Made by a program: the position numbers and the translations under genes. Below the pieces are notes generated by a model. The model ran no database searches. It saw nothing but the letters and a program-made list of their open reading frames with translations, and was not told the origin of the DNA. Of a stretch of 64,000 nucleotides of DNA, positions 10,535 to 61,963 are shown piece by piece (position 1 is the stretch's first letter; each line of letters begins with the position of its first letter). Source of the stretch: Aurantiochytrium sp. KH105 (Eukaryota; Sar; Bigyra; Thraustochytrida; Thraustochytriidae). The stretch lies in contig BGKB01000512.1 in the NCBI GenBank assembly GCA_003116975.1, positions 95,846 through 159,845 of the forward strand, read 5' to 3'.

Positions 10535-12517
10535 CTAGCAAATCAGACATCCACTTCGATCTTGTGCTGGCTGCCGGATAATGCGTTGGGAAAGACGCGA
10601 GGCCGTAGAGGCTGCCGATGATCGCCGTGAAGGGCGCTTGCCTGCCAGAGCACCGGGGTTGGAGGCCGCAAAAAAGTCCTGGATATCGCGATTGATTTTG
10701 CGCACGCACATACCAAAGACGGCATCGTAGATGGGGAGCGCGTTGGACGATTTGACGCGGTCCAGGCCGTCAGGAAGGACGCTCATTTCGGCGCCAATGT
10801 CAACGTGCTCGCGAAAGACGGGAACAATGAGCATTTTGGGATTGGCGCACGCCAGGCGAAGCTCTTCAAGGCACCAATCGGTGACACCGTTGGCGTGATT
10901 CCTGGCCATGAGCGTTGCAGACGAGAGTTCGGAGGCCGGAGCCACCCCGCCGGAAGGCGCCGCCGTAAAGAGAGGCATAAGTACGCGGGAGCGCTTGACA
11001 GCACGATCAAGTTGGGCTCGAAAGTTGCCCGCACCAAGACCGTGGTCATCGCTGACGTCGAGAAAGACAGTATAGCCGAATCGCTCGAGGTGCAAACGCA
11101 GACGATCCGCAAAGTCGAGCTGCGCACGGCGATACGAGATAAAAATGTCGTGGTCATACTTGTTGGAGTCCGGTAAATGAAGGGCAAAGTCTTGAGGAAG
11201 GACGCGATTGGATGTGCCCTCGTCACTAGAAGCCATGTCGGGTGCAGGCGGAGCGTATTGCATGCCGGGCCGGACCGCTGACAGCGAGGGAGTCTGCAGG
11301 CCGCTCATGTAGGTTAAAAATTTGCGGAGATCTTTGACAGAGTAGCTTGTCCCGGTGGAACCCTTTTCAATACGCGCACCGGTCTGAGCCGCAAAGAAAT
11401 CGTCTGGAGCGATTTCTGGCTTGGCGCTCTGGCCCTGAACGCCAACGGAGAAGAAGACGCGAGCTTGGGCGCCAGAGGGCAGCGTCAGGCAGGCTGTGAT
11501 GATGTGGGAGCGCACAGCATCCTGCATGATGCTGGTTACGGCAAAAGAGACCATCGACTTTGTTCCTGTCCAAAGCAGGAGATTTTCGGGCTCTGCGCAC
11601 TGAAAATAGTTTTGGTCAAAGTCGAGGTGAACGGGATAGCTCTGGTTGCGCTTAAGAAGGACCGGGCCGTGCATACCGACTTGGACGTTGCCGCCTGTGG
11701 CCCCGCTGGGGTCCATAGCGTCTGCGAAGGCCATCAATGTGAGAATAAAGGTCTCTTTGGGGGCAACTGCCTTGGCAGGGCCGTAGGCGTTCAAATAGGC
11801 AATATCGAGTTCATCTGCCGAGGAGATGCGAGCAATGGTGTCTGGGACCGTGGGAGGCGCTTCGCCGCCGCGCAGACGCAGTACGAGAGAAGCGTCGACA
11901 CTTGATCCATTTTCGGAGACGAGTTGGTCATCAAGCACTTGCTGGCCGGCAATGATAAGGCGCTGCTGGTCGGGAGGGATGCCCTCGCGATCAAAAATGC
12001 GTTCCTTGGCTTCACCCCAGGTTTCTCCTTGTAAGGTGTCGAGGTAGATAGTTTTGCCCGTCAGAGTCTTGACGGTCAAGGGGATGGTGGGCTGCGCCAT
12101 TTTCTTTTTCATGGTTTTCTTGGTGCGTGGTTTTCTCCTTGTTGTAGAGGCTGCTGCTGCTACTGCTGCTGATGGTGGTGGTAGTTCGTTGTCATCGAAC
12201 GCGAGAAGGTCTCCTTCAGCCCTTGCGAGCACGTCGTCACCATTCTCGTCGTCTTCTTCTGCATCCTCTTGGTCGTCGGCAAGGATAAGACGAACTTCAA
12301 AGATGAAAGGAAAATCAAAGAGGTCGGCAAGAGTACCCTCGTCATCGGCCGTGAACTGCTTGCGCGAGGCAGACTTGCGAGTGCGCGCTTCGAGGGCAAG
12401 AATATCAAGGCCAGGTACCTCTTCGTCGACGAGCTCAAGCACGTCGGCTACGGCAAAAGTGGGATCAACGTCGAGCGCGAGGATGATATCGCCGGGGATG
12501 TCGACCAGCAGCAACAT
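10535..12517 (-). CDS. Ubiquitin-like / TIR domain fusion with C-terminal CaaX-like box
   Basis: This 660-aa protein has an N-terminal beta-rich region (1-80) and an acidic and then Lys/Arg-rich linker. A ubiquitin-like domain follows at about 145-217; it keeps VKTLTGKTI and EGIPPDQQRLI and ends in LRLRGG. Next comes a beta-sandwich-like region (about 230-365) that I cannot name. A TIR domain lies at about 451-600, opening with DHDIFISYRRA. The TIR keeps WCLEEL near 550, where the second Glu matches the NAD-hydrolysing Glu of active TIRs, so NADase activity is plausible. The protein ends in CLIC, a possible prenylation (CaaX) signal that would tether it to membranes. The Ubl has lost the equivalents of K29, K33, K48 and K63. 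The start is the ATG at 12517; the open frame further upstream has only a GTG start. A role in immune or stress signalling is inference. Confidence 0.88.
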   Translation of the reverse strand: MLLLVDIPGDIILALDVDPTFAVADVLELVDEEVPGLDILALEARTRKSASRKQFTADDEGTLADLFDFPFIFEVRLILADDQEDAEEDDENGDDVLARAEGDLLAFDDNELPPPSAAVAAAASTTRRKPRTKKTMKKKMAQPTIPLTVKTLTGKTIYLDTLQGETWGEAKERIFDREGIPPDQQRLIIAGQQVLDDQLVSENGSSVDASLVLRLRGGEAPPTVPDTIARISSADELDIAYLNAYGPAKAVAPKETFILTLMAFADAMDPSGATGGNVQVGMHGPVLLKRNQSYPVHLDFDQNYFQCAEPENLLLWTGTKSMVSFAVTSIMQDAVRSHIITACLTLPSGAQARVFFSVGVQGQSAKPEIAPDDFFAAQTGARIEKGSTGTSYSVKDLRKFLTYMSGLQTPSLSAVRPGMQYAPPAPDMASSDEGTSNRVLPQDFALHLPDSNKYDHDIFISYRRAQLDFADRLRLHLERFGYTVFLDVSDDHGLGAGNFRAQLDRAVKRSRVLMPLFTAAPSGGVAPASELSSATLMARNHANGVTDWCLEELRLACANPKMLIVPVFREHVDIGAEMSVLPDGLDRVKSSNALPIYDAVFGMCVRKINRDIQDFFAASNPGALAGKRPSRRSSAASTASRLSQRIIRQPAQDRSGCLIC

Positions 12518-15446
12518 CGTTCGTGCTCGCGTTCCACCGTCCGTCCGGTTCGTCCGTCCGGGTTGCTCGTCTGCACTCGCCCACGTCACTCGCGTCCGTT
12601 CGCGTTTGGTTCTGAAGAGCTTTTGCTACTTTCCGCACACACCCTCCTTTTCCCAGCACAAGCTGGCTGGCTGCTGCAGCTGGCTGCTCGAATGCGGAGC
12701 TGAGCTGGCCGGCGCGTGCCGCAGCGTGTGCACACCTTTTTGCACAACACATTTTAGTATCCCCGCTCGCCGCACACCCGCAGCATGCGGGGACCCCGAG
12801 GCTCTGCTCGCTGCTTCGCGATCGCCATCGCCGTCGCTCGCTCCTTGGTGCAGCTGCTCCGAAAAAACAATCTCGATCGATGAGCGTTGGTTGAATGCAC
12901 AATGGTCGGCCTGGCCTGGTCGCGACCAACTGCCACCACGTCCAGTCCAGTTCTGAGTCGCGGGGACGGCAGGATTCCAGCCACGCAAAAGCCGTGACAA
13001 AAGCTACGAGGCCTACTCAAGAGTCTCTCGGGCCACGCATGATCCAGCCAGTCCAGGCCGCTCTTTTTCCGCCCGCCACCTGCCAGCCGTGGCAGGTGCC
13101 ACGGGCGGCGAGTACGGCCGCCCGTGGCCAGCCCGGCGAACAAACAGCAGAGCGCGCACCAGCATCAAGCAAGGCGAGCGAGGTCCGGCCAGCAGTAGCC
13201 AGCAAGGCTGATGGCAACTAGTAAGATGTGGAAGCAGACTACGTGCTACTATAATATATGTACCTATACCTACCACGCCTGGCAAGACCAGAGTGCGAGC
13301 GTGTCCTGTCCTCGAGGCAGGGCCGGCCGCTCGATCTAGTTTCCGTCAAGGAGGGACAACAGAGAGGGCACGCGCCCGCGGACGCACGCCGCCGTGGCCA
13401 TGCCACTACTGGCGCGGCCTCAAAGCTCGCGATCCCCCCCTCCCCTTCCTCCCCCGGCGTGGCGCGCAGCTGCCATCGAGGGACGGCGACGGCGACTCGT
13501 TGACGCGCCGCGACGCGCCGCGACGTCGTCACGGTAGCAGCTGCAGCGAGCAAGCTGCACCAGGCTGCGGACGCGTGCCTCTGCCTGGTCGCTGTCGCGA
13601 GTTCGAGTTGGTTGGCGGCGTCTGGCAGGCAACCAGCCAGCTGCCACTGCAGGCAGAGCGCGAGAAAGATAGAAAGTTAGTTGGACCAAGTTGGAGGCAA
13701 AGGGAGCCTCGCCTCGCCTCGCCTTGGCAGTTCGCAGCCGTGCCGAGTCCGCGGCCCTGTCCCCGCCACCACTGACGGCAGTGGCAGTGACAGTGGCAGT
13801 GGTGGCACGAGTTTCGAGTGGTGGTCGTCCACCAGCCAGAGTCTGCTTCTCTGGCTAGTGGGACTGGCAGGCAGGCTGTCCTGATGGCTTCGGACAGCGG
13901 CGGCACTTACTGCACGCATGGCTGCTGCTGGTTGTGCTGCTGGCTGGCTGTGCTGCAGGCTGGCTGCTGCAGCTGCCATGGCTGCTGGCGATGGTTTGGT
14001 TCGAGTTGTCCACCATGACGGGCCGCCGAACACGACCGACCTTGCATCGATTTGAAGCTTTTCAAATCTTCGTTCGCAGCGGCCAGTACAGGCAGCTAGC
14101 TCAGTGCGTGTCCGTGATCGCGGCCGCGGCGGTCTGATTGCCTGTGCTCGCTCTGGCTGCTGCCACTGTTGCCAGCTGCTGCTGTTGGCGACCACCACTG
14201 CCAAGTCAGCTGGCTGGCTGTCCGGCTGGCGGGCTGGCTGGCGGGCTGGCTAGCGGCCATGGCTAGCTAGCTAGCTAGCTAGCTCTAGCTGTCTGTGGCG
14301 TTCGCATTTTGGCTTCCTGGCGCGTTGCCATCCCGCTCCACTTGCTTCCTTCGCTGCTCCCTCTCGCGCTGCTCCGGTCCATCTTGGCAACTGCAAGCAA
14401 GCAAGCAAGCAAGCAAGCGAGCGCGCTTCATCGGTCGTCCATCATCATTGTTGTCGTCGTCGTCATCGTCGCCCTCCTCGCGCTCCGCCTCGATTCAAAT
14501 CGCAGCTCGCGCTGGCTCGCTCGCTCGCACTGCACTCGCTGCGCATCGCATCGCAGGCCGCAGGCCGCAGAGCAGCTGCTCGTCACCCTGCGCCGCGCCG
14601 CCGCGCTGCGCCTCGCGTTCGGTCTGCGGGTCGTCATCGATGGCGGGCGTCCTGCTCGCCGTCCGTCATGTGATTCTGTCTCCATGGTCTGTCTGTCTGT
14701 CTGTCTGTCTATCTCTCTCTGGCTAGCGCCGCCACCGAAGATTCTGGCGCACTTGCGGCTCATTCGTTCACAGTGGATCCGCGCTTCGGCCAGTCGATCT
14801 CTCGCGCGCTCCAAGTGTGCAAAGACAGCGGCCAAGGGAGGAAGCGCCCTCCCCCGCGGTTAGGCTGGGTCGCCTCGTTCGGTAGTTAGGCTGCTTCCGG
14901 CAGCGGCCGGTAGTTACCTTCCTTCCCTCGCGCCTCCCCGGCCGCCCGCCAGGCCGGCTCGCTGCGCACGGGACCGCGCTGCTGGCCGCAGCCTAGCGCT
15001 CGGGCGGGCGGAAGGAGAGGAGGGAAGGAGGGAGGCCGCGGGGGCGGGTGTGCGCGGCGGGCCGCGCAAAGAGTGCGGCCACGCCGAGGAAAGTTTGCTT
15101 GTCTCTGCGAGCGAGGACACCGTGAGCCAAAAGAAAACTTTCTTTTTTCATTTTTCATTTTTATTTCTATTTCCCATGTTCATTGCTGTTGCAGCGCAGC
15201 TGTCTGTCTGGCTACGGCTGCGCCCTCGCTGAGCCTGCCTGCCTGCCGGACGGCCGTGCGCGGGAGGCGGGCGCGGCGCGGCTCGGGCCCGCGCGCCGGG
15301 CTGGCCGTCTGGTCTGGCCATGTGTCGTCAGTCAGTCAGTTAGTCTGTCAGTCAGTCAGGCTGTCAGTCTGTGAGCCTGTCTGTCCGTGTGCGCGCTCGG
15401 CTTCCTCCTGCTGGCTGCAGCCTTTTGGACAGACAGACAGAGAGAC

Positions 15447-56914: not shown

Positions 56915-57075
56915 TGCCGGCGGATGAAGACAGCGGCAAACACGAAGACGGCCATAAACGCACCACTCACAGGACCTACGAGAAGCGCCAGCGGCGAAGT
57001 CACCACTCGTCATCACTTTGGTGGCACTCGTTCATCACTGTCGGCTCGGTCGCAGGGGGACCGCGGTGGGGACTG
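56915..57075 (-). pseudogene. Decayed second copy of the LRR gene's stalk and membrane exon
   Basis: On the minus strand this segment repeats, with changes, the part of the LRR gene that encodes the Pro/Thr stalk and the membrane span. The order ACGCAGTCCCC, CCGAGCCGACAG, GCTGGCGCTT, GGCCGTCT and TTTGCCGCTGTC is shared with about 57150-57290. It can be read as GAFMAVFVFAAVFIRR, matching GAFVAVSVFAAVVNRR of the gene. A frame change separates it from the upstream frame, and the LRR gene's stop codon (57035-57037) falls inside the duplicated stalk. Confidence 0.65.
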
Positions 57076-60000
57076 CGTCTGGTGCGTTAGGGCCTTCGTA
57101 GGGGCCTGCGTAGGGTAATGCGTTGGCCTCGGTCGTGGCCGCGCGACGGCGGCGACGGTTGACGACAGCGGCAAAGACGGAGACGGCCACAAACGCGCCA
57201 GCCAAAAGACCCACAATAAGCGCCAGCAGCGTAGCCGACGACTCGCCATTGTTAATCGCTGTCGGCTCGGCCGTAGGGGACTGCGTGGTTGGGAACTGCG
57301 TAGTTGGTGTAGTAGGGGACTGCGTGGGGGACGGCGTTGAACACGCGTTAAATTCCCCTGTTCCTTCATACGGTCGATTTGTCCCCGTGAGGGAGGCAGG
57401 AAGAACTGGCTGTGGCCCGCAGAGAGGGACGTTATCAATATTCCTGCGCATTGAAATCATGTGAGCTTTCTTGCACCGCAAATATCTCGCGAAGAACTTA
57501 CAAGTAGGTCAGATTTGTCATGTTAGTGATCGCTTGAGGAAGCTCCGTAAGATCTGTATTTGCGATCTCCCTGTACGATTGATTGTAACAGTGAGTACGA
57601 TTAAACTCTGACTCTAACGAGCGAATGTGTTGAACGTACAGACTTCCGAGCTTTGTGAGCTCGGAAAGGTTTCAGGAAGGGAGGTGAGAGGATTGTAAGA
57701 CACGTCTCTATAACATAAAACGAAGTATTAGTTCCTTTTCAGCGATTCGTTCGTATTATCGATTACTTCGTCGCCGTCTCGATGACATCATCTAACTTAC
57801 AGGTAAAGAAGTTCGGAAAGTCCCAAAATACTCTCGGGGAGGGACGGGAGCTGGTTTGCGTAAGAAGATCTGTTTATGCTCGTGTTCATGTGTGAGGGTC
57901 ATCTTCCTAATTTCCTGGAACGATTAGCTTCGGCCACTTTTACGTACAAGGCAGTCAGCTTGGTCAAAGCCCCAATCGAAGAGGGCAATTCCGTGAGCTT
58001 GTTGAAGAAGACACCTCTGTAATTAGGTGATTTTTGAAAGACAAATGTTAGTGACAACTCAGTTTCTGTCTCCGACGACCATTTGGTGACATCATCTGAC
58101 TTACAGGTACTTAAGTTCGGAAAGTCCCGAAATGCTCTCGGGGAGGGACGTGAGCGGGTTGCTGTCAGAAGCTCTGTTTATACTCGCGTTCAAGTGTGAG
58201 AGTCGTCTTTCTAATTTTCTGAGATTCGGCCACTTTCACGTACAAGTGAATCAGATTGGTCAAAGCCCCAATCGAAGAGGGCAATTCAGTAAGCTCGTTA
58301 CTGCCTACATTTCTGCAATGAGGTGGTTTTCAAAAGGCGAATGTTAGCGGAAACTCATTTTTTGTCTCGACAACTATCTGATGACAACATCTGACTTACA
58401 GTGTGATAAGCTCGGAAAGTCCCGAAATGCTCTCGGGGAGGGACGTGAGCTGGTTTCCGTAAGAAGATCTGTTTATGCTCGCGTTCATGTGTGAGGGTCA
58501 TCTTTCTAATTTCCTGGAACTTTTTGCTTCGGCCATTTTCACGTACAAGGCAGTCAGCTTGGTCAAAGCCCCAATCGAAGAGGGCAATTCGGTGAGCTCG
58601 TTGTTGCCTATATTTCTGCAATGAGGTGATTTTCGAAAGGCGAATGTTAGTGGGAACTCATTTCCTGTCTCGTCAACCATTTGATGACATCATCTGACTT
58701 ACAGGTAAAGAAGTTCGGAAAGTCCCGAAATGCTCTCGGTGAGGGACGTGAGCTGGTTGTTGTAAGAAGATCTGTTTATGCTCGCGTTCATGTGTGAGGG
58801 TCATCTTTCTTTCAATTAAATTAATTAAAGGCCTGGGAACCGATCAGCTTCAGCCACTATATAGTCGATTACTTCCTCGCCGTCTTGATGACATCATCTG
58901 ACTTACAGGTACTTAAGTTCGGAAAGTCCCGAAATGCTCTCGGGGAGGGACGTGAGCTGGTTGTTGAAAGAAGATCTGTTTATGCTCGCGTTCATGGGTG
59001 AGGGTCATCTTTCTAATTTCCTGGAACTTTTTGCTTCGGCCACTTTCACGTACAAGGCAGTCAGCTTGGTCAAAGCCCCAATTGAAGAGGGCAATTCCGT
59101 TAGCTTGTTGTAGACGACATCTCTGTAATTAGGTGATTTCCGAAAGACGAGTATTAGTGACAACTCATTTTCTGTCTCCGACGCTCATTTGATGACATCA
59201 TCTGACTTACAGGTACTTAAGTTCGGAAAGTCCCGAAATGCTCTCGGGGAGGGACGTGAGCTGGTTGTTGAAAGAAGATCTGTTTATGCTCGCGTTCATG
59301 TGTGAGGTTCATCTTTCTAATTTCCTGGAACGATTTGCTTCGGCCACTTTCACGTACAAGGCAGTCAGCTTGGTCAAAGCCCCAATCGAAGAAGGCAATT
59401 CCGTGAGCTTGTTGTAGTCGACATCTCTGCAATGAGGTGATTTTTGAAAGACAAATGTTAGTGACAACCCATTTTCTGTCTCCGACGACCATTTGATGAC
59501 ATCATCTGACTTACAGGTACCTAAGTTCGGAAAGTCCCGAAATGCTCTCGGGGAGGGACGTGAGCTGGTTGCTGGAAGAAGCTCTGTTTATGCTCGCGTT
59601 CATGTGTGAGGGTCATCTTTCTAATTTCCTGGAACGATTAGCTTCGGCCACTTTCACGTACAAGGCAGTCAGCTTGGTCAAAGCCCCAATCGAAGAGGGC
59701 AAATCGGTGAGCTCGTTGCTGCGTAGATTTCTGCAATTAGATGATTTTTGAAAGACGAGTATTAGTGACAGCTCATTTTCTGGCTCGACAATCATTTGAT
59801 GACAACATCTGACTTACAGTGAGGTAATCTCGGAAAGTCCCGAAATGCTCTCGGGGAGGGACGTGAGGTGGTTGCTGTAAGGAAATCTGTGTTTGCTCGC
59901 GTTCATGTGTGAGGATAATTCTTCTAATTTCCTACGAGAACGATTAGCTTCGGCCTCTTTCACGTACAAGTAAGTCAGCTTGGTCAGAGCCCCAATCGAC

Positions 60001-60442
60001 GAGGGCAACTCTGTGAGCTTATTTACGGGAAGACTTCTGCATTTAGGTGATTTTCGAAACGAGAATGTTAGTGGCAACTCGCCATATTGATGAATGTGAT
60101 GCACGTACAGATAAATCAGATTTGTCAGCTGGCCAACAGATTCAGAGATAGCCGTCAGTCCATTGTTTTCCAGAGAGCTACGATTATAGACGGATTGGTC
60201 AGTATACTTCGCCAACACTCTGCAACGATGAAAACTTACAGGTGCGTGAGCGAGGTCAAGGAGGAAAGGGCGGGCACGAAAACGTCAGTGTTGCGGTCCT
60301 CGCCTTCGGCAATAACTTCGGCGCAGTAAGCATAAGTCGATGAGCCGTTACAAGGGGAAGGGTTGCAGCTGCAACTTGCGCCATTCGCCAAGGGTGAGGC
60401 ACAAAGAAGGACGACCAGGAGCAGTAGATGCCGGAGCATCAT
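57035..60442 (-). CDS. Leucine-rich-repeat membrane protein built from 69-bp exon cassettes
   Basis: Exons in transcript order: 60442-60240; 60177-60109; 60036-59968; 59886-59818; 59730-59662; 59583-59515; 59426-59358; 59279-59211; 59122-59054; 58975-58907; 58771-58703; 58615-58547; 58468-58400; 58312-58244; 58173-58105; 58016-57948; 57869-57801; optional 57707-57640; 57570-57502; 57443-57035. Exon 1 gives a signal peptide (about 1-21) and a Cys-rich cap. Each 69-bp exon encodes one 23-residue LRR such as NELTELPSSIGALTKLTAL. The last exon gives a Cys-containing end (VPLCGPQ), a Pro/Thr stalk, one membrane span (LLALIVGLLAGAFVAVSVFA) and an RRRRR-containing tail. Every intron is 58-135 bp and phase 2, with GTAAGT or GTACGT donors. 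Leaving out the 68-bp exon gives 594 aa. The protein probably displays a recognition surface outside the cell; ligand and role are unknown. Confidence 0.85.
57640..57707 (-). other. Frame-breaking 68-bp LRR exon
   Basis: It has an acceptor (TATAG) and donor (GTACGT) like its neighbours and encodes NPLTSLPET, but it is 68 bp, not 69. If included, the frame shifts and a TGA is met within the next exon after 17 more codons. The product would be about 475 aa with no membrane span. If skipped, the frame is kept. It may be a broken cassette or a splice switch. Confidence 0.6.
57801..60036 (-). repeat. Tandem array of two alternating LRR exon cassettes with their introns
   Basis: Two cassette types alternate. 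Type A reads ELPSSIGALTKLTAL and type B reads SLPESISGLSELxYL. A-to-B introns are 70-81 bp (mostly 78) and B-to-A introns mostly 87-88 bp, so the unit is about 304 bp. Introns as well as exons are near-identical between units, which points to recent tandem duplication. There are seven A and eight B cassettes here. One A cassette is missing between 58771 and 58907, where the intron is 135 bp. Confidence 0.88.
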
Positions 60443-61963
60443 CGCGACCACGCCGTTCTTGCTAGTAGAGGACCACTCTGAGCTCTTGTTGGCTTGCGGA
60501 CCGACAGCGAGACCTTGCGTCTATTGCGAGTCTGCCACACTTTCTCATTCGCCGGTCAATCCCGGTTCGCCTGACTCGGCCTCTGACACTTGGCGTCAAT
60601 GAAATTGCGTAGCTCTCAATCATTGACTGTGAATCCGTACCTCGGGCCGCCTGCCTGCCCGTGTGTCGGAAGAAGCCCATTTTTCCTGGCTGGACAGGAA
60701 GTTTGTGGCCCTCGTTACATGGCGTTGCGGTGATAGATTTGGATTTGTGCATCCACCGACCTCCACCCTGCCTCTCTACTAACAGTAAACAAACCGCGCT
60801 GTGCCAAGAAACCTGCTCCTGGCCGGCCGGGGCCGACAGGAAGTCGCGCGTGCGGCGTGATGACCAGGTTGTCCGCGGTAGCGAGCAGGGTCTCTCTCCT
60901 CGCTCCCTCGCTGGCGAGTGCATCCGTGGGAAGGAGAGGGAGAGCGCGGTAGGCGCCCCTGCCGATCCGGCAGTGCAGCGGCCACTGGTCGGGGTTCCCT
61001 GGATTCCTCCCTCGTTCGTTCGTTCGCGCGTGACTGGGGTGTGTGTGTGGCCAGCTTCTGGCCATAGCTGGCACGTGCGCCGCGCTGGCTCGTGCACTGC
61101 GCGCGCGCGCGTCTCTTTCCTGGCTGTTGCAGTTGCAGTTGCTGGCTAAAGAGTCTTCACTGGCGCAACTTCTCGAAACGACGCTTCATTGGCAACTGCC
61201 AGTCAACTGTTTCCCTCTTCAAACGTCACCTACAGCCAGCTGTGGCTGGTGAGTATGTCGAGCAAGCAAGTGAAGAACCAGCTTGGCCACATTGGCAGCT
61301 CGTCATTGGCTCTACTGGCAGCCAGTCTTTGCAGCAGTGACCAGCTGGCTGGCCTCACTGTCAACACATTGGCGGGGCTCTGGCACAACACCCAGGTTGC
61401 AGGTGCCGCTCGACACATTTGCGAGTGCGGAACCGCCCATAGCAAGTGCGGCAGAATTACTCCATGGACTTGGCCTTCTAGCTGAGCTGGCAGAGGCTGA
61501 CTGAGGGAGAAGAGGACGTCTGGTCGCAAGTGAATCTGTTACGCTTGCAAGAGGAGAATTAGCCGTGTAAATAAAGAATTCTCTAAATCTCTGCTCTTTG
61601 CGATCGCATGACGAGAATGAGTATGAAAGAGGCTCAAGATGTGTATGGAGGCTACAATGATCGAGTTGAATGCTGAAGCACCCCTGAAAGCTTTGCTTGT
61701 CTCGTGAGGATGCTTTTGCCCGTCCTTGCGCACTTTGGTGGCCCGCTAAGGTCTACGGCGTCATGAATGACCGAGCTCCTTGTCCCCTCTGCCACGATTT
61801 CGCGGGGGAGTCTCCATACTATGGTGGAAAATGGACTCCAAGGGACGAAGTTCGTAATAAGCAGAGAGAAAATTTTTGTTATTCGAAGTTTCCTAGCTCT
61901 AGAGATCGTGAAAGCTAAAGCCAACCAGTTTTTGAGCTAGCCAGTTCTCTGTTGGAGAGCGAT
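60443..61963. other. Intergenic, upstream of the LRR gene
   Basis: These 1.5 kb have no supported gene. The left end should hold the LRR gene promoter. The overlapping open frames are short and of no recognisable family. Confidence 0.45.

Follow-up and report, generated by a model that had tools for sequence, protein, structure and literature searches.

Results

A gene of 18 leucine-rich repeat exons in the window

The 64,000-nucleotide stretch of Aurantiochytrium sp. KH105 contig BGKB01000512.1 analysed here (the window) carries on its minus strand a leucine-rich repeat (LRR) gene, which runs from a start codon at 60442 to a stop codon ending at 57035, where the preliminary description had correctly located it. 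This gene, one of a family whose predicted ligand face is hypervariable, is made of 20 exons and 19 introns: one exon for a signal peptide and a Cys-rich segment, 18 LRR exons (cassettes), and one exon for a stalk and a membrane span. Seventeen of the 18 cassettes are exactly 69 bp, so the earlier count of about 17 such exons holds for that length and falls one short of the total, cassette 17 (57707-57640) being 68 bp long. The 19 phase-2 introns reported earlier were all recovered (58-135 bp, in phase 2 wherever the reading frame is preserved), and the claim that any cassette could be removed without loss of frame applies to 17 of the 18, cassette 17 excepted. The exons are as follows.

60240..60442, minus strand: exon 1, signal peptide and Cys-rich N-cap, ending in phase 2
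60109..60177, minus strand: LRR cassette 1, N type
59968..60036, minus strand: LRR cassette 2, B type
59818..59886, minus strand: LRR cassette 3, A type
59662..59730, minus strand: LRR cassette 4, B type
59515..59583, minus strand: LRR cassette 5, A type
59358..59426, minus strand: LRR cassette 6, B type
59211..59279, minus strand: LRR cassette 7, A type
59054..59122, minus strand: LRR cassette 8, B type
58907..58975, minus strand: LRR cassette 9, A type
58703..58771, minus strand: LRR cassette 10, A type
58547..58615, minus strand: LRR cassette 11, B type
58400..58468, minus strand: LRR cassette 12, A type
58244..58312, minus strand: LRR cassette 13, B type
58105..58173, minus strand: LRR cassette 14, A type
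57948..58016, minus strand: LRR cassette 15, B type
57801..57869, minus strand: LRR cassette 16, A type
57640..57707, minus strand: LRR cassette 17, P type, one base short at 68 bp (the C98 copy has 69 bp), frame-breaking here
57502..57570, minus strand: LRR cassette 18, Z type
57035..57443, minus strand: last exon, encoding a constant C-cap (VPLCGPQPVLP), a Thr/Pro stalk, a membrane span and a short RRRRR-containing tail up to the stop

Fully spliced as written, the window copy loses its frame and stops at 475 amino acids, upstream of the stalk and membrane span; a second copy of the gene, on contig C98, has the same 18 cassettes, every one of 69 bp. In both copies cassette 9 is followed by an intron (135 bp in the window) where a B cassette would be expected and is absent. 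Scanning for 69-bp cassettes gave 17 matches in 57001-60500, but none either in the rest of the window (60.5 kb) or in 20 versions of the gene with shuffled triplets, which excludes a chance origin of the array. The modular surface-receptor layout described earlier was borne out as read from sequence, the signal peptide and membrane span having been recognised by eye. In a Pfam scan of the spliced C98 protein, only LRR families passed the cut-off: no known signalling domain was found in the short tail, and no ROC-COR GTPase domain was above the cut-off. The nearest relative of solved structure, by sequence, was SHOC-2.

A family of cassette arrays with a near-invariant order

A genome search for other 69-bp phase-2 arrays, already proposed in the preliminary description, yielded 28 genes with 354 recognised cassettes (contigs and stretches carry our labels C and L). 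The assembly (76 Mb, 367 contigs) appears to contain both haplotypes, because many matches come in pairs, and the 28 genes correspond to about 14 per haploid genome. The constant 3' exon occurs in 28 places, all 28 on cassette arrays; the genes lie in 27 stretches, of which C17:387700 carries two. Searching with a 68-residue family query for the signal-peptide exon returned 30 matches, 25 of them spanning residues 1-66 or more; the others were two over which the exon at C123:209k was split, one on C253 (residues 2-62) and weak ones on C211 and C90. Among the 28 genes this exon was absent only from C220, which is cut by N, and from C214.

Cassette length is strikingly uniform across the family, with 350 of the 354 cassettes exactly 69 bp long and none containing an in-frame stop; the four of other lengths (67, 68, 68 and 71 bp) lie in C59, C214, the window copy and C356, respectively. 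The genes carry 7 to 29 cassettes if C220, which a run of N cuts to 6, is not counted. For three genes the count is a lower bound: C9 has 143 N within its array, C220 has 1465 N, and C58:203k has one N and a 770-bp gap. The scanner accepted exons of 66-72 bp that follow an AG and precede a GT or GC, with lower scores for GC and for stops, so damaged cassettes can be missed and the conservation of splice sites is partly built in; it was run on stretches other than L002-L008 and L070-L072. Within the scanned stretches, C103, C253, C211 and C36:545k had no row of two or more cassettes.

The order of cassettes is near-invariant: one N, then B and A alternating, one P, one Z and the constant end. 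Alternation holds for 233 of 242 A/B neighbours, and one exception is a typing slip, since the 68-bp P cassette of the window was typed A by the script, making one of five AA neighbours false. Two donor sites predominate among the 354 cassettes, GTACGT (181, mainly after B exons) and GTAAGT (136, mainly after A exons). The earlier suggestion that the cassettes are interchangeable was upheld at the joins: the junction codon is Leu at all 17 joins that the window gene actually has, at 316 of the 324 that it could have and, across the family, at 296 of 327 neighbouring joins (one of which links two different genes) and 4955 of 5434 possible ordered pairs within arrays. A separate search with the cassette unit gave 148 matches, all on contigs with arrays; no orphan cassette reservoir was seen in the 30 candidate stretches scored.

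In three genes a further large ectodomain is joined to the array and its constant cap (two were read fully, C58:203k by its frame of 867 amino acids), an arrangement suggesting that the array travels as a unit. The regions of these fusion genes or of their relative are L070 451-3060 (C17), L071 526-2805 (C17) and L072 878-3487 (C28), C28 carrying a stand-alone relative of the extra ectodomain with its own membrane span. Relative to the copy at C17:375-378k, the fusion copy at C17:201-204k is out of frame in its tail. Two arrays carry insertions, one of 2.66 kb within the cassettes (C8:21557-24217; L058 1158-3818) and one of about 2.2 kb between exon 1 and the first cassette (C36:553822-556100; L064), the latter absent from the C17:388k copy. 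Three of their open frames (two in C8, one in C36) had no Pfam match; the insertions may have a piggyBac-like look.

When the constant end (residues 478-617) was compared with about 5.8 billion proteins, only two of 2217 candidates reached E <= 0.01, both from Hondaea. One of them is an ordinary member of the family and bears the annotation LRR-containing protein 1. The public Hondaea model P0111 of a family member appears to join cassettes and intron pieces as coding sequence, which looks like a prediction artefact, and such genes may be mis-annotated. The window also has an intact PRMT5 frame, which shares 99% identity with its Hondaea fermentalgiana counterpart across 99% of the length; the host is that thraustochytrid or a very near one. 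The family thus far appears only in Hondaea-like thraustochytrids. Judged by titles and the first lines of abstracts, apparently no paper on it was among the matches listed in literature searches pairing LRR with Hondaea, thraustochytrids, Aurantiochytrium or labyrinthulomycetes, in a source with few subscription journals.

Variation is concentrated on the predicted concave face

Residue entropy was computed on 250 cassettes of 69 bp, of which 41 of unclear type and 15 of Z type were set aside, leaving 95 A and 99 B. In both types, residues 1, 3, 4, 21 and 22 reach 2.55-3.64 bits and residues 2 and 6 reach 1.8-2.2 bits, and residues 7-20 stay at or below 0.91 bits except for B residue 9 (1.81). 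The five hypervariable residues, 31% of which are Ser or Tyr, are presumably the exposed positions of the concave strand according to the usual LRR register. The phase-2 intron splits a Leu codon in the middle of this strand, so that each exon holds two half-sites, and the variable codons adjoin the splice sites. The earlier idea of a diversifying receptor thus found support in a hypervariable predicted ligand face, and the statement that units are near-identical is right for the scaffold and, loosely, for the introns, but not for the concave codons, which differ strongly.

Replacement change outruns silent change in the youngest duplicates

Replacement (pN) and silent (pS) divergence was compared between paralogous cassettes using 257 A and B cassettes with both flanking introns of at most 130 bp, in pairs with at most eight gap columns. 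These pairs are not independent; intervals are given by bootstrap over loci. Since the comparisons of nearest introns and of codon positions treated only six gene pairs as matched, some "paralogous" pairs may be allelic (C9/C73, for example). In the closest pairs (both introns less than 8% diverged; 60 pairs, 14 loci), pN at the five concave codons was 0.309 and pS 0.093, the interval for their difference being 0.073 to 0.285, and the scaffold of the same pairs had a pN of 0.027 and a pS of 0.098. Replacement therefore outruns silent change at the concave codons of the youngest duplicates; elsewhere the signal is borderline or data-poor.

At an intron divergence of 2.8-2.9%, the first and second positions of six concave codons differ by 26.8% between paralogues (19 pairs, 23 cassettes; both introns less than 4% diverged) and by 5.4% between alleles (49 pairs), and the scaffold by 3.5%. 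Cassettes two steps apart within arrays (216 pairs) have a pN/pS of 1.21 at concave codons and 0.42 in the scaffold, their equal-length introns differing by 14.7%. On C17, two genes of 12 cassettes form an inverted repeat (377900-380700, minus strand, and 382100-385200, plus strand) whose equal-length introns differ at 2 of 680 bases, and their concave codons carry eight replacement changes and no silent one.

Among the six matched gene pairs, one of which is an inverted duplicate on a single contig, equal-length introns differ by 2.4%, silent scaffold sites by 3.75% and replacement scaffold sites by 0.88% (scaffold pN/pS 0.23). Constraint as the source of intron identity was rejected, since the intron value is not far below the silent one; the low intron divergence between paralogues accordingly points to recent homogenisation. 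A role of introns as coding linkers was also rejected: none of 106 A-to-B introns is open in frame, and 21% of the 89 B-to-A introns with a length divisible by three are open, versus 27% in shuffles. Of 264 cassettes, 80 have their nearest intron within their own array, where 10.7 would be expected; for 36 of those 80 it is two steps away, as duplication of a B-A unit predicts. In 25 of 16341 non-matched cassette pairs the 12 bases at the 5' end are identical.

Arrays differ between haplotypes at five pairs and are equal at five

Contigs were assigned as presumed alleles from flank identity and gene arrangement and, for C367/C98, also from a second LRR gene about 60 kb off on both. Five haplotype pairs have the same cassette number and order (18, 12, 11, 7 and 10 cassettes), with gene-adjacent flanks 94-99.8% identical and outer flanks, where present, 79-98.5%; both genes of the inverted duplicate likewise have 12. 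At five other pairs the number differs: at least 20 versus 17 in C9 and C73, which also differ in cassette sequence and whose outer flanks are 96.6% and 94.5% identical; at least 20 versus 29, and 21 versus 9, in the head-to-head gene pair shared by C58 and C17; 8 versus 10 in C51 and C123; and 13 versus 11 in C59 and C214, where the C214 5' end is missing and one outer flank is 97.8% identical. The gene ends are mostly more diverged in these five pairs.

Some arrays therefore stay put and others are remodelled faster than their surroundings, a pattern that we read as episodic recombination in the germline. There is no sign of somatic shuffling, and the stable arrays speak against a frequent form of it. 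Diversification by recombination, as first proposed, acts on cassette number at five loci, but the five unchanged pairs do not fit a fast rate.

Other reading frames in and beside the window

Elsewhere in the window, the reading frame at 10538-12589 (minus strand) encodes a single protein that has both a ubiquitin-like and a TIR domain. Just beyond the window, C367:93246-93425 (L006) has LRR repeats inside an uninterrupted frame of 1697 amino acids, and the listed LRR_8 matches sit in open frames of 86 to 2106 amino acids, so that exons this short are apparently absent from the other LRR genes here.

Discussion

We consider it probable that these genes encode type I membrane receptors for recognition at the cell surface, directed at variable non-self or allorecognition targets and diversified by germline recombination together with selection on the concave face. 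In the mechanism we propose, each cassette exon would begin with the second half of one strand site, continue through one convex scaffold and end in the first half of the site that follows, and the spliceosome would join every cassette in genomic order. Over generations, unequal crossing-over and gene conversion between B-A units of about 300 bp would change cassette number, and the same recombination would homogenise introns and scaffold while selection for new binding diversified the concave codons.

Several observations weigh against this proposal. The 68-bp cassette breaks the frame of the window copy, which is either a real frame break or an assembly error, the C98 copy being intact, and the C98 tail without a known signalling domain makes signalling by the receptor alone unlikely. 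The excess of concave replacement change fades outside the closest paralogues: the interval for the 252 pairs whose introns are less than 12% diverged barely includes zero (-0.004 to 0.221), and the matched cassettes of the six gene pairs give a pN of 0.062 versus a pS of 0.038 at the five codons (interval -0.061 to 0.144) and of 0.0460 versus 0.0448 with six codons (68 cassettes), single gene pairs ranging in the latter from 0.14 to 2.50 where defined. Taken alone, the concave rates of matched pairs show relaxed constraint and not positive selection. For 184 of 264 cassettes the nearest intron lies in another array, so inter-locus exchange or shared ancestry must also count. Two further results slightly lowered our confidence: C9 and C73 match each other in their outer flanks as well as pairs of equal number do, which raises the case for splicing or somatic change, and third codon positions give a mixed result, which raises that for targeted change.

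The first of these alternatives holds that alternative splicing skips or mixes the cassettes, or that somatic recombination rearranges them, so that a single gene yields many receptors per cell line. It accords with phase-2 exons of 69 bp that could be joined through Leu in most ordered combinations within arrays, with the two main donor classes, with the alternative splicing of similar brown algal arrays (PMC11378527, in the part of the text consulted) and with the differences of C9 and C73 in number and sequence between similar flanks; skipping the 68-bp cassette would, moreover, restore the frame of the window copy. We nonetheless regard it as unlikely, given the five haplotype pairs of equal number and order and the cassette-unit matches confined to array contigs with no orphan reservoir seen in the scored stretches; the one Hondaea model that mixes cassettes with intron pieces, looking like an artefact, lends it no help. 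A bolder version, in which the germline half-site arrays of this free-living, single-celled marine stramenopile are also expressed in many combinations by skipping or clonal rearrangement and give each lineage a private surface repertoire analogous to that of variable lymphocyte receptors (VLRs), seems to us rather improbable. A dedicated mechanism that alters the concave codons, through mutagenesis aimed at the sequence next to the splice sites or through replacement of short stretches there from a template, would explain why change is limited to codons 1, 3, 4, 21 and 22, mostly at codon positions 1 and 2, and why 64 of 164 differing concave codons in the 60 close pairs differ at two or three bases. 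Third positions divide on it: they exceed the scaffold in the 19 closest pairs (0.137 versus 0.049) and in all wider bins, but not in the next 41 pairs (0.083 versus 0.104), so that segment replacement as a source of concave variation has 19 of the 60 close pairs for it and 41 against. As alleles show little excess and the positions coincide with the LRR binding face, which selection explains, this mechanism is very improbable.

The same anatomy and evolution could also serve adhesion or recognition of cell walls or mates, under sexual or self-recognition selection and with no role against pathogens or competitors. The type I layout, the short tail and the lack of an immune signalling domain in the Pfam scan are compatible with this, and nothing at hand separates it from recognition of non-self; we hold it to be quite improbable. 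Neutral decay of a dying repeat family, with array size driven by slippage and no selected function, draws on the off-length cassettes (four, each in a different gene), the broken frame of the window copy, the insertions in the C8 array and the C36 first intron and the fused copy with an out-of-frame tail. It is already disfavoured, and in our view very improbable, in the face of the near-universal 69-bp length without stops, the constrained scaffold of matched cassettes and variation restricted to the concave face.

If receptors for variable targets are indeed what these genes encode, thraustochytrids, which are grown in culture for oils, would possess a hypervariable LRR receptor family and offer a tractable system for asking what a unicellular eukaryote must recognise. 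A binding face far more variable than the rest of the molecule is expected of proteins that recognise many changing targets. The near-neutral introns between cassettes provide an internal yardstick that separates recombination from selection codon by codon, which intron-free repeat families do not give.

Comparison with known systems

To the LRR exon arrays of two other protist groups, brown algae and Tetrahymena, this family would add a third case; comparisons with published systems refer to the parts of each source that were consulted. Brown algal LRR-ROCO genes (Ectocarpus, Saccharina) have phase-2 exons of 72 bp with one LRR each, in shuffled arrays with concave diversifying selection and alternative splicing (PMC11378527). 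Both lineages are stramenopiles and share one LRR per phase-2 exon, but the exons here measure 69 bp, and the brown algal proteins are LRR-ROC-COR GTPases whereas the thraustochytrid ones have a signal peptide and a membrane span; no fixed A/B alternation is described for brown algal ROCO genes in the text consulted. In Tetrahymena, young families carry tandem phase-2 LRR exons of equal length (90 bp), whose variation in number is ascribed to ectopic recombination (PMC6564038). Tandem phase-2 exon arrays whose exon number varies between relatives are common to both; Tetrahymena, a ciliate, has 90-bp exons and thousands of genes, as against 28 genes here with almost exclusively 69-bp cassettes, two alternating exon types and distinct N, P and Z end cassettes. 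The Tetrahymena genes are associated with a LINE-like retrotransposon; of the two insertions seen in the arrays here, three open frames gave no Pfam match.

Lamprey VLRs comprise a Cys N-cap, a first LRR, variable LRRs in varying number, an end LRR, a connecting module, a C-cap and an invariant 3' region (PMC3900441). The likeness to them noted in the preliminary description stands for the module order, and extends to the variable concave surface on an LRR solenoid, but no donor reservoir was seen in the stretches scored and the brown algal and Tetrahymena exon arrays are closer. VLR genes are incomplete in the germline and are assembled in lymphocytes from separate donor cassettes, whereas here all 28 constant 3' exons found sit on arrays and the genome contains whole genes, in which introns separate all the cassettes. 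The AID/APOBEC deaminase family PF08210 had no match in the assembly, nor in any of 14 control genomes, and we claim no homology to VLRs.

Podospora NWD/HET and other NLR repeats show concerted evolution, polymorphic repeat number and positive selection at few positions of the ligand face (PMC4986451), and the fungal NLR-like set consists of intracellular proteins with WD, ANK or TPR repeats in which "no LRR motifs were found" (PMC4986451). Near-identical repeats evolving in concert, with few ligand-face sites under selection, may be a shared trait, to which the signal of the 60 closest paralogue pairs and introns that cluster by array more than expected would point, with alleles non-significant and the 252 pairs borderline; the differences are that Pfam recognises only LRR repeats here, each on one exon, and that a signal peptide and a membrane span are present. 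By the tests made, the family belongs to none of the four systems. By analogy, its nearest counterparts would be the brown algal and Tetrahymena arrays in gene architecture, the fungal NWD genes in evolutionary regime and the VLRs in protein layout.

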